From Gracilibacillus suaedae (GTDB lineage Bacteria > Bacillota > Bacilli > Bacillales > Amphibacillaceae), in assembly GCF_017599345.1 (NCBI RefSeq), contig NZ_JAGFVL010000029.1, forward strand, positions 1 to 64,000: a stretch of 64,000 nt of DNA. The letters are read 5' to 3'. The notes beneath the pieces are model-generated. The model did not search any database, was not told where the DNA came from, and saw only the letters and a program-made list of their open reading frames with translations. Shown piece by piece: positions 32,819 to 40,661 of the stretch (positions are counted from its first letter, which is position 1; every line of letters starts with the position of its first letter). The translations under genes were made by a program, and so were the position numbers.

Positions 32819-32936
32819 CTTCTTATCGAGAGAGGTGGAGGGATTGGCCCTATGAAGCCTCGGCAACCATTAAGTGAATCGTCCTTAATACAGGTGCCAA
32901 TTCCACTAAGCGTATATGGCTTAGAGAGATAAGAGA
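32819..32936 (+). ncRNA. SAM-I (S-box) riboswitch, first of a tandem pair
   Basis: Conserved core AGAGGTGGAGGGA...TGGCCC.ATGA.GCC.CGGCAACC...AGGTGCCAATTCC, closed by P1 stem CTTATC/GATAAG. Binding S-adenosylmethionine frees the downstream terminator and stops transcription. It is followed by its own terminator and then a second aptamer, with no gene between. Confidence 0.95.
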
Positions 32937-33005: not shown

Positions 33006-33118
33006 TCACTCTTATCCAGAGAGGCAGAGGGACTGGCCCGATGACGCCCAGCAACCATTAAGCAATGGCTTAAAAGGTGCTAATTCCTGCAGGATACTTA
33101 TCCTGATAGATAAGAGGA
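33006..33118 (+). ncRNA. SAM-I (S-box) riboswitch, second of a tandem pair
   Basis: Core AGAGGCAGAGGGACTGGCCC, GATGACGCCCAGCAACC and AAGGTGCTAATTCCTGC, closed by P1 CTCTTATC/GATAAGAG. Complete aptamer with a second independent terminator before the sulfhydrylase gene. Confidence 0.95.
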
Positions 33119-37726: not shown

Positions 37727-39415
37727 ATGACGCAACATGCAACAACACACATTGCAACAATAGAAGGCGATTATAATCTTAGCAACTATGAGGAAAAAAG
37801 AGCAAATTTTGATTGGTCAGATGCAAAAGCATTATTATCTGCTGCGAAGACAGGAAAGATAAATGCAGCATATGAAACCATTGGTCGTCACGTAGCAGAG
37901 GGATATGGAGATAAGATTGCTCTCCATTATATTAATGAGAACGAAAGGCGATCGTACACGTTTAAAGAAATAAAGGATCAAACTGACCATTATGCTCGCA
38001 TATTAAAAGAGCATGGAGTAACGAAAGGGGATCGTGTCTTTGTATTTCTTCCTAAAACACCTGAATGCTATATTGCGATATTAGCAGCTATTAAAGTAGG
38101 GGCAATTGCTGGTCCTTTATTTGAAGCATTTATGGAAGAAGCAGTGAGAGACCGTATCAATGATTGTGCTGGTACTTTGCTGATTACTGATCAGGAGTTA
38201 GTCAAACGTGTACCGAAGACGGATATTCCTTCACTAGAAACGATTCTTTTTGTGGAGGATATCGAGAAAGAACCGTTACAACCTGTTGATGGTGATCAGT
38301 ATGTGGAGTGGGTAGACTGGGAGGATGGTTTAATCATCCATTATACAAGTGGCTCTACTGGTAAACCAAAAGGCGTACTACATGCTCATCGTGCAGTACA
38401 ACATCATATCGTGACAGGAAAATGGGTACTAGATATTAAAGATGATGATGTTTATTGGTGTACGTCACACCCAGGCTGGGTAACAGGCAGTGTATATGGC
38501 TTGTTTGCTCCACTATTGAATAGAGCAACTGTTGTGATCCAAGGTGGACGCTTCAGTGCAGAGAATTGGTATTCCTTAATTGAGGAATTAGGAGTAACGA
38601 TTTGGTATAGTGCACCGACAGCTTTCCGTATGCTCCTGTCAAAAGGTGACCTCTATAAACAATATGATTTATCTTCTGTACGGCATGTCTTAAGTGTAGG
38701 GGAACCTTTAAACCCTGAAGTAATCCAATGGGCATGGAACAGTTTACATGTTCGTATCCATGATACATGGTGGATGACAGAGACAGGTGGGCATTTAATT
38801 GTCAACCTTCCTGCTGAAAAAATTAAACCCGGTTCCATGGGGAGACCTTTTCCTGGCGTACAGGTGGGTATTTTGGATGAAGAAGGTAATGAACTACCTC
38901 ACGGTGAAGTTGGACAACTAGCGGTACGTACACCTTGGCCAGGACTTATGAAAGAAATTTGGGGAAACCAAGATAAGTTCCAATCTTATTTCCAATATGA
39001 GGGCTGGTATATTTCAGGAGATCTAGCATTACAGGATGAGGAAGGATATGTCTTCTTCCAAGGGCGAAATGACGATATGATCAATTCTGCTGGTGAGCGT
39101 ATTGGTCCCTTTGAAGTGGAAAGTAAGTTAATCGAACACCCCGCTGTAGAAGAAGCTGGTGTTATCGGTAAACCGGATGAATTACGCGGGGAATTAGTCA
39201 AAGCCTTTATTACGTTAAGAGCAGGCTATCGACAATCAGATCAATTACTAGAAGACATTCGAATATATGTGAGAAAAAATCTTTCCGCACATGCTGCTCC
39301 TAGAGAAATTGAAGTAATGGATGAATTACCAAAAACCAAGATCAGCGGAAAGATTTTAAGAAGACAATTAAAAGCACTAGAAATCGAAAGAGCTAAGAAA
39401 GTGAGATTTTCATAA
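37727..39415 (+). CDS. AcsA-like AMP-forming acyl-CoA synthetase
   Basis: A 562-aa adenylate-forming ligase close to acetyl-CoA synthetase AcsA of Bacilli. It has the P-loop-like 'IHYTSGSTGKPKGVLH' (~208), 'DDVYWCTSHPGWVTGSVYG', 'IHDTWWMTETGGHLI' (A5, ~345) and 'GRNDDMINSAGERIGPFEVES' (A8). The catalytic-lysine motif reads 'LPKTKISGKILRR', one residue longer than the usual LPKTRSGK. It would activate acetate or another short carboxylate. Last gene of the operon, under SAM riboswitch control, where an Acs is unexpected; it may recycle acetate released by the sulfhydrylase or activate an imported sulfur acid. ATG after AAGGGGG. Confidence 0.87.
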   Translation: MTQHATTHIATIEGDYNLSNYEEKRANFDWSDAKALLSAAKTGKINAAYETIGRHVAEGYGDKIALHYINENERRSYTFKEIKDQTDHYARILKEHGVTKGDRVFVFLPKTPECYIAILAAIKVGAIAGPLFEAFMEEAVRDRINDCAGTLLITDQELVKRVPKTDIPSLETILFVEDIEKEPLQPVDGDQYVEWVDWEDGLIIHYTSGSTGKPKGVLHAHRAVQHHIVTGKWVLDIKDDDVYWCTSHPGWVTGSVYGLFAPLLNRATVVIQGGRFSAENWYSLIEELGVTIWYSAPTAFRMLLSKGDLYKQYDLSSVRHVLSVGEPLNPEVIQWAWNSLHVRIHDTWWMTETGGHLIVNLPAEKIKPGSMGRPFPGVQVGILDEEGNELPHGEVGQLAVRTPWPGLMKEIWGNQDKFQSYFQYEGWYISGDLALQDEEGYVFFQGRNDDMINSAGERIGPFEVESKLIEHPAVEEAGVIGKPDELRGELVKAFITLRAGYRQSDQLLEDIRIYVRKNLSAHAAPREIEVMDELPKTKISGKILRRQLKALEIERAKKVRFS

Positions 39416-39492: not shown

Positions 39493-39604
39493 TACTCTTA
39501 TGAAGAGCGGTGGAGGGACTGGCCTGATGAAACCCGGCAACCTTAAGCTATTAATGCTTAAAAGGTGCTAAATCCTGCAAACTTTAGTTTGAAAAATAAG
39601 AGGG
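39493..39604 (+). ncRNA. SAM-I (S-box) riboswitch 3
   Basis: Core AGAGCGGTGGAGGGACTGG, CTGATGAAACCCGGCAACC and AAGGTGCTAAATCCTGC, with P1 CTCTTAT/ATAAGAG. Located between the acyl-CoA synthetase and the hydroxyacid-dehydrogenase-like gene. Confidence 0.95.
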
Positions 39605-39616
39605 AGATAATAGCTT

Positions 39617-39649
39617 TAGTCTCTCTTGTTTATCAAGAGGGGCTTTTTT
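39617..39649 (+). terminator. Expression-platform terminator of SAM riboswitch 3
   Basis: GTCTCTCTTG / CAAGAGGGGC with wobbles, followed by TTTTTTG. Confidence 0.85.
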
Positions 39650-39679
39650 GTTTCCCTAAATTATTAGGAGGCATATAAC

Positions 39680-40597
39680 ATGGTAAAAACAAAAGTGAAG
39701 GGAAATTTTATAGCTGATTTAGAGGAAGTAGCTGAAAAACAATTATCTGAAACAGCTAAATTATATTTAGATCAAGTAACATCCAAGAAAGGAAATGCTA
39801 CATCATTTATACTTAATAGTAATTCACCATCTAAACTGAAAATTTCTCCTCTATTGTTAGGTGCGGTTGGTGCGCAGACATATTTTCATGAAGATGGAGA
39901 ACTAGCAACGGCCAAAGCTGCCAGTAAGCAGGGGGTACCTTTTATTGTTAGCAGTCATTCATCCTATAGCATTGAAGAAATTAGTGATGCTGTTCCAGAT
40001 AGTGAACTTTGGTTCCAAGCTCACATTTTTCAAGATTTAGAACTTACTAAACATTTTGTCCAGCGTGCCGAATTAGCCGGTTATCAGGCAATTATTTTGT
40101 CCATAGCTAAAGATGAAATTCATTGGAAAGCAGATCAATTAGTGAAAGGAACTACCAATTTTGTTGTCGATCCAATTTTTGCCAAGAAAAATTATGCGAA
40201 TAAAAGCCCGCTGGCAGAACAGGTGGCAAATGAATATCAAAAACGGTACATTAATTGGGAAGAGATTCAATATATAAAACAGTTTACGACATTACCAATC
40301 TTTGTTTATGGAGACTTGTCATTAGATGATGTTCGTTCAAGTATAGAACAGCAAGTTGATGGGATTATTTTGTCCAATATTAATGAGTCTAATCTTGATT
40401 TACTGGAACAGATCAATATAATAATAAGTGAAAGGTTAACCGTTGTTGTAGAGGCGGAAGTGAAGTTGAAAGATGAATTAAACCACTATTTACAACAAGG
40501 TGCTGATGCAATTTCGATACGAAAAAGTTATATTTATGGATTATCGACTTCGGGTGTTTTAGGCGCAGAAGAAGTCATTGCTCAATTATTCACATAA
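39680..40597 (+). CDS. Catalytically degenerate FMN-dependent hydroxyacid dehydrogenase homologue
   Basis: A 305-aa protein that lines up with the TIM barrel of lactate oxidase/glycolate oxidase: 'KISPLLLGAVGAQTYFHEDGELATAKAASKQGVPFIVSS', 'QAHIFQD', 'YINWEEIQYIKQF', 'PIFVYGDLS', 'VDGIILSN' and 'GADAISIRKSYIYGL'. Where the family has the active-site Tyr (QIY), Thr (ILT), Lys (FVKG), His (SNHG) and Arg (SGVRRG), it has His, Ser, Tyr, Ile and Lys-Leu (EAEVKLKD). It is also about 60 aa shorter than lactate oxidase. Probably not a hydroxyacid oxidase; it may bind a ligand or flavin differently. SAM riboswitch control ties it to methionine/sulfur supply. ATG after TTAGGAGG. Confidence 0.75.
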   Translation: MVKTKVKGNFIADLEEVAEKQLSETAKLYLDQVTSKKGNATSFILNSNSPSKLKISPLLLGAVGAQTYFHEDGELATAKAASKQGVPFIVSSHSSYSIEEISDAVPDSELWFQAHIFQDLELTKHFVQRAELAGYQAIILSIAKDEIHWKADQLVKGTTNFVVDPIFAKKNYANKSPLAEQVANEYQKRYINWEEIQYIKQFTTLPIFVYGDLSLDDVRSSIEQQVDGIILSNINESNLDLLEQINIIISERLTVVVEAEVKLKDELNHYLQQGADAISIRKSYIYGLSTSGVLGAEEVIAQLFT

Positions 40598-40626: not shown

Positions 40627-40661
40627 AAAAATGGGATATAGTATAACTATATCCCATTTTT
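40627..40661 (+). terminator. Terminator before ldh
   Basis: TGGGATATAG / CTATATCCCA stem followed by TTTTTCG; it insulates ldh from the riboswitch transcript. Confidence 0.85.

Follow-up and report, generated by a model that had tools for sequence, protein, structure and literature searches.

A SAM-I riboswitch-led gene in Gracilibacillus suaedae encodes a candidate pseudoenzyme of the FMN-dependent 2-hydroxyacid oxidase family

In the window, the 64,000-nucleotide stretch of Gracilibacillus suaedae DNA that was analyzed, a SAM-I (S-box) riboswitch precedes a gene that, judged from its sequence, has lost the catalytic motif of the FMN-dependent 2-hydroxyacid oxidases and has nevertheless been kept by purifying selection, as is characteristic of a pseudoenzyme. 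We consider it reasonably probable that the encoded protein is a flavin-free pseudoenzyme that stems from the 2-hydroxyacid oxidase of a methionine operon and binds a partner through the beta1-beta4 side of its barrel. The case is traceable, with the intact enzyme, its operon, the riboswitch, and the disarmed descendant all visible in living relatives and both the intact and the degenerate form present in the genome from which the window derives.

A degenerate oxidase gene behind an S-box

The leader, the gene, and the region immediately 3' of it comprise the following features:

39495..39602, + strand: SAM-I (S-box) riboswitch aptamer (RF00162, 86.9 bits, E 3.2e-19, gathering score 44.4)
39618..39651, + strand: intrinsic terminator belonging to the expression platform of the S-box (a hairpin at 39618-39644, then a T run)
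39680..40597, + strand: degenerate FMN-dependent 2-hydroxyacid oxidase-like protein, 305 amino acids (ORF, profile, model, and alignment)
40627..40661, + strand: strong A/T-flanked hairpin 3' of the degenerate gene (fold z-score -5.73; the T run is the 3' arm)

The initial annotation had placed this gene under S-box control, and the aptamer upstream on the same strand, together with its terminator platform, bears this out and makes the window gene a predicted member of the SAM-I regulon. An S-box was likewise found upstream of the degenerate gene, on the same strand, in all 13 genomes carrying it (the window and each of the 12 relatives), the relatives having been scored for the aptamer and the terminator platform having been examined in the window only. 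The S-box of one relative (G013) lies ~490 bases from the gene; by eye, this gap (L048:8034-8524) contains repeated short motifs resembling an inserted intergenic repeat, and a search of it for metQNI remnants revealed nothing beyond chance (best tblastn E 0.59). The hairpin at 40627-40661, which was absent from the output of a simple terminator scan, is a possible terminator, and a stable hairpin in this position points to a possibly monocistronic S-box unit.

The open reading frame starts with the ATG at 39680 behind GGAGG and is devoid of internal stops. Its product belongs to the FMN_dh family (Pfam PF01070; 127.2 bits, E 1e-36, curated cut-off 24.9) and scores far below the cut-off of the L-lactate oxidase equivalog TIGR02708 (92.9 vs 645.5 bits); sequence matches in the PDB were lactate oxidase and HAO1. 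The predicted structure (pLDDT 81.5, pTM 0.84) forms the full (beta/alpha)8 barrel of the family, with lactate monooxygenase as the best Foldseek match among the 1000 top chains (Z 30.9) and spinach glycolate oxidase at Z 30.1 (rmsd 2.4, 267 aligned), in agreement with the lactate-oxidase fold proposed beforehand. The nearest named relative found is G. lacisalsi, whose protein is 92% identical to that of the window.

The further proposal that the length of the frame is well kept did not hold, since 305 amino acids compare with 366-380 in the 12 nearest intact rows, a shortness that results from three internal deletions and the loss of the C-terminal tail. In one relative (L090, G033:C1:4688985-4689794), the FMN_dh profile match continues beyond the stop of the degenerate gene, with 2 TAA inside, and this part may represent a remnant of the lost C-terminus or an extension by chance.

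Loss of the active site

Active-site positions, named by what we take to be the residue numbers of spinach glycolate oxidase, were compared in an alignment of 42 intact and 13 degenerate rows; L061 (220 amino acids, in-frame stop) was included in the tree described below and excluded from this alignment. Three replacements stand out:

40307..40309, + strand: Tyr210 replacing the FMN-binding Lys (K230; Lys in 42/42 intact and 1/13 degenerate rows, L014)
40379..40381, + strand: Ile234 replacing the catalytic His (H254; His in 42/42 intact and 0/13 degenerate rows), with the Arg257 loop after it deleted
40451..40453, + strand: Glu258 replacing the FMN-ribityl Asp (D285; Asp in 42/42 intact rows, Glu in 12/13 and Asp in 1/13 degenerate rows, L014)

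The substitutions of Tyr, Thr, Lys, His, and Arg named in the initial annotation are real in the alignment of the window protein, in which Tyr129 is changed to His, Thr155 to Ser, Lys230 to Tyr, His254 to Ile, Asp285 to Glu, and Arg289 to Lys, Gly308-Arg309 reads Arg-Lys, and the Arg257 loop is deleted. This degeneracy is common to all 13 short forms. The catalytic His and the substrate Arg of the SNHGGRQ motif are each retained in 0/13, the Arg257 column being gapped throughout, and the Tyr129 column holds His in 10 rows, Asn in 2, and Asp in 1, with Ser, Asn, Ala, or Pro in the Thr155 column. The FMN site has fared similarly: the window protein keeps none of its five residues (Lys230, Asp285, Arg289, Gly308-Arg309), neither the FMN-phosphate Arg289 nor Gly308 is kept in any degenerate row, and the Arg309 column shows Arg in 2/13 and Lys in 7/13. 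In addition, all 13 rows have lost a segment of loop 4 along with the Arg257 loop and the C-terminal tail, and 12/13 have lost an N-terminal loop.

The expectation that the active-site residues are gone thus stood for the named ones and failed for others, as the Tyr24 position is Tyr or Phe in 13/13 rows, Gln127 persists in 9/13, Ser106 in 11/13, and the window protein retains all three positions. The FMN contacts that are left (Gln127, Ser106, Arg309 in 2/13, and both Lys230 and Asp285 in L014) count against a flavin-free protein. They lead to the alternative that FMN or another flavin is still bound in an altered manner and takes part in a changed flavin reaction, for which Gln113 (9/13), Ser91 (11/13), Lys or Arg at position 282 (9/13, Arg in 2), and the FMN Lys and Asp kept in L014 can be adduced. 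Given that Arg289, Gly308, the catalytic His, and Arg257 are lost in 13/13 and the FMN Lys in 12/13, we hold this alternative to be very improbable.

In comparison with the PF01070 enzymes (lactate oxidase, lactate monooxygenase, glycolate oxidase), the window protein therefore has the fold, the profile, and many structural residues in common but differs by the missing catalytic His and substrate Arg, the deleted loops, and the lost C-terminus. Pseudoenzymes in general, as described in the available part of PMC10211241, likewise combine a conserved enzyme-family fold with the lack of a catalytic motif. Among the literature matches listed, no title dealt with a pseudoenzyme from this family of oxidases or with one under an S-box.

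Descent from an S-box metQNI-oxidase operon

Phylogeny and gene order support the descent of the degenerate protein from an FMN-dependent 2-hydroxyacid oxidase that was encoded in an S-box metQ-metN-metI operon. In a tree of 56 proteins, into which identical proteins were entered once, the 13 degenerate proteins form one branch (support 99/98), which joins 12 intact oxidases encoded adjacent to metN/metI at 100/99. The branches leading to L013 and L014 are long (2.36 and 1.87), and the composition of L013 is odd, so that their placement could be due to long-branch attraction, a point that counts against our reading. The deletions common to all 13 speak for a single origin, although repeated loss of useless loops may be an alternative source of them.

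Of the 46 locus rows listed, some of which represent the same place twice, 25 have metI adjoining the oxidase, accompanied by all or part of metN wherever the flank extended far enough. Such metI-linked intact copies recur across several families of the order. An S-box precedes the metQNI-oxidase operon at all 7 places with enough upstream DNA (L049, L050, L098, L099, L101, L102, and L103), 6 of which are among the 12 nearest intact rows. For L052 and L058, there was too little upstream DNA for scoring, with no S-box in what was examined. In G009, the order is S-box-metQ-metN-metI-oxidase-metQ-enoyl-CoA hydratase-CoA transferase, and this intact operon sits between homoserine dehydrogenase and lactate dehydrogenase, the site occupied elsewhere by the degenerate gene. 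An intact S-box metQNI-oxidase operon is also present in the window genome, on a different contig. The coordinates of the two operons are L049:5050-8899 (window genome) and L050:2491-9361 (G009, including the second metQ, the enoyl-CoA hydratase, and the CoA transferase).

The intact oxidases of these Bacillales operons (L049 and L050) thus share S-box control with the degenerate gene, are closest to it in the tree, and in G009 occupy the same site; they differ in their intact active site, in their length of 366-380 amino acids (12 nearest rows), and in being encoded beside a methionine-type ABC transporter. A conceivable substrate of the intact oxidase would be 2-hydroxy-4-methylthiobutyrate. 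Among the matches listed, literature searches returned nothing on point for a link between methionine hydroxy analogue and hydroxy acid oxidase, for an S-box- or metNPQ-linked oxidase, or for Gracilibacillus methionine/sulfur metabolism, and no paper among them was seen to deal with the degenerate gene or the intact S-box-linked oxidase; this is weak evidence, as subscription literature was little covered. The main text of PMC3766115 contains none of the terms "lactate", "oxidase", and "metQ".

As the simplest history, we infer that this site once held an S-box metQNI-oxidase operon whose transporter genes were lost, which would have left the S-box fronting the oxidase, and that the oxidase then lost its active site.

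A full-length FMN_dh oxidase occurs alongside the degenerate protein in the window genome, G031, and G035. This co-occurrence would suit a subunit that forms mixed oligomers with the intact oxidase and tunes it, an idea that we find hardly credible, as only 3/13 genomes with the degenerate protein encode a full-length oxidase. Since no full-length oxidase of that type was seen in the other 10, mixed oligomers cannot be the general role and were rejected as such.

Distribution and chromosomal site

The family was surveyed in 159 genomes, 65 of which had a match at E <=1e-30, a threshold at which weaker copies could be missed. The short degenerate form was found in 13 of the 159, namely 11 of the Gracilibacillus clade as well as G119 and G013, which belong to two other genera; all 13 ORFs are stop-free, and the other family matches listed have open frames of at least 374 amino acids. 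No new degenerate copies were found in 397 sampled genomes of the order (E up to 1e-40; other matches listed in frames of at least 360 amino acids) and none in 398 sampled genomes of the class (E up to 1e-55; matches listed in frames of at least 378 amino acids). Since these samples were drawn from larger groups, with at most 5 candidates scored per genome, degenerate copies may exist outside the family.

The chromosomal site is largely constant. The degenerate gene follows an AcsA-like ligase in 12/13 genomes, with homoserine dehydrogenase in between in G013; the sole exception is G025, a genome that is 83% complete. L-lactate dehydrogenase is the next gene in 10/13, including the window (two frames in G025), and is not in G027, G024, and G035. 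Altogether, the degenerate gene is present in 12 of the 45 family genomes with an AcsA-like orthologue (E 1e-240). In G022 and G026, the same site has neither the gene nor its S-box, from which it follows that the gene is dispensable, and this also counts against our reading; in G022, the MetY and AcsA frames are broken as well, so this assembly may be poor. Downstream of the AcsA-like ligase in G011, G117, G118, G137, G121, G010, G083, and G109, neither an oxidase nor an S-box was found, and homoserine dehydrogenase is located there in 5 of these 8.

Purifying selection and moved constraint

dN/dS was calculated for 8 pairs drawn from 8 of the 13 sequences (L001, L003-L009), of which one pair was saturated and four more had dS >1. 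In the 7 unsaturated pairs, the values of 0.079-0.156 are far below neutral. The neighbors have values of 0.012-0.047 (MetY, 8 pairs), 0.026-0.087 (AcsA, 6 of 8 pairs), and 0.013-0.113 (SsuC, 7 of 8 pairs), and the dN of the degenerate gene exceeds that of all three in every matched pair, by 1.2 to ~19 times. The gene is thus constrained yet evolves faster than its neighbors, and this looseness is to be counted against a maintained function.

A pseudogene was rejected on account of the purifying dN/dS and the absence of stops in the 13 ORFs. A slower decay is also conceivable, in which the gene is a relic of the oxidase that is harmless for now or is kept since the S-box leader matters. While the elevated dN, the empty site in G022 and G026, and the restriction to 13/159 family genomes would fit such a relic, we judge it quite improbable in view of the uninterrupted ORFs, the upper limit of 0.156 for dN/dS, and the clade-specific and regional conservation described next. 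The pattern of selection and losses is unexpected of a pseudogene, just as a working oxidase would not be expected to survive such losses. That the gene is maintained but inactivated under SAM control, as had been suggested, is supported by the shared degeneracy, the S-box in front of every copy, and the low dN/dS, and it gains further support from the descent from a metQNI-linked oxidase and from a shift of constraint off the pocket.

This shift is apparent at 17 pocket positions. In the 12 nearest intact rows, which are those within the 100/99 branch shared with the degenerate clade, identity at these positions is 0.969 vs 0.665 for the barrel. The corresponding values are 0.438 vs 0.539 in all 13 degenerate rows and 0.548 vs 0.612 in the 11 rows of the Gracilibacillus clade, a pocket value that 82% of random sets equal or exceed. 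The old pocket has lost its special conservation, and constraint is now concentrated on the beta1-beta4 side and on one short loop:

39845..40099, + strand: codons 56-140 (beta1 to beta4), the long stretch under the strongest constraint among the degenerate proteins (dN and block conservation)
40160..40189, + strand: codons 161-170 (FVVDPIF loop), conservation 0.79, compared with 0.55 for the nearest intact enzymes

Across five close pairs, codons 56-140 have a dN of 0.010-0.041 vs 0.032-0.191 in codons 171-230 and 231-305. dN/dS is lower in codons 56-140 than in 231-305 in 5/5 pairs, with a mixed segment dS (lower in 3/5, higher in 2/5). The constraint shift between halves is 0.299 and was reached in 0/20,000 permutations, a count that is descriptive only, because the halves were picked after the block-conservation result. 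The FVVDPIF loop is preceded by the loop-4 segment that all 13 proteins have lost. Furthermore, 13 positions are clade-specific, being kept in at least 12/13 degenerate rows and in at most one-third of the 12 nearest intact rows. D103, Q136, L132, F161, Q201, and E258 stand out most clearly, and the remainder includes Q128, V163, and I166. According to predicted secondary structure, D103, Q128, L132, Q136, and Q201 fall within helices 2, 3, and 4 or directly behind them, which suggests one patch at the side and bottom of the barrel. However, this helix conservation could merely mirror a homo-oligomer interface of the parent enzyme, on which the best 10 of 75 literature matches contained nothing usable.

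TIM barrels often change their chemistry, and the protein could accordingly be a repurposed enzyme with a new, flavin-free active site at the barrel top that acts on a sulfur metabolite. Candidate residues of such a site in the Gracilibacillus clade include His115, Tyr210, Glu258, and Gln113, which are found in 10/13, 10/13, 12/13, and 9/13 rows, respectively. However, the pocket set is conserved no better than the barrel average, and L011, L013, and L014 deviate at both His115 and Tyr210; a new enzymatic activity is therefore unlikely in our estimation.

A putative binding role at low SAM

The preservation of the fold and of one face, behind a switch that is turned off by SAM, makes it most likely that the pseudoenzyme binds a partner, and a binding or scaffold protein made at low SAM is probably what the gene provides. 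We envisage that transcription would take place when SAM is low, that the protein would fold as a flavin-free TIM barrel, and that it would act without oxidase chemistry by binding something via the beta1-beta4 side. The likely surface would be formed by helices alpha1-alpha3, D103, Q128, L132, Q136, Q201, and the FVVDPIF loop. The partner could be the protein itself or a protein of methionine/sulfur uptake and synthesis, and none, nor any ligand, was identified in this computational analysis. A new function of binding or regulation within sulfur metabolism, as the initial annotation had put forward, would be compatible with this model; its more specific form, an oxidase-fold adaptor or sensor without flavin that is induced at low SAM and serves the machinery for methionine synthesis or uptake, is proposed here only tentatively. 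If true, an enzyme of a riboswitch-controlled methionine operon would have turned into a regulatory partner. The role of the riboswitch-controlled pseudoenzyme and the substrate of the intact oxidase are both directly testable.

The sulfur-metabolism neighborhood

The neighborhood of the gene in the window is one of sulfur metabolism. Upstream of it are encoded MetY (O-acetylhomoserine sulfhydrylase) fused to a CoA-binding domain, an SsuA-type binding protein, an SsuC-type permease, an SsuB-type ATPase, and the AcsA-like ligase. This acyl-CoA ligase (37727-39415) is a recurrent member of the S-box MetY-Ssu cluster of the relatives. Two further S-boxes were detected in the window:

32820-32935 and 33009-33116: tandem S-boxes (RF00162) before the MetY-CoA-binding fusion

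Tandem SAM-I pairs are also present in 8 of 11 loci of relatives holding this MetY (L037-L048).
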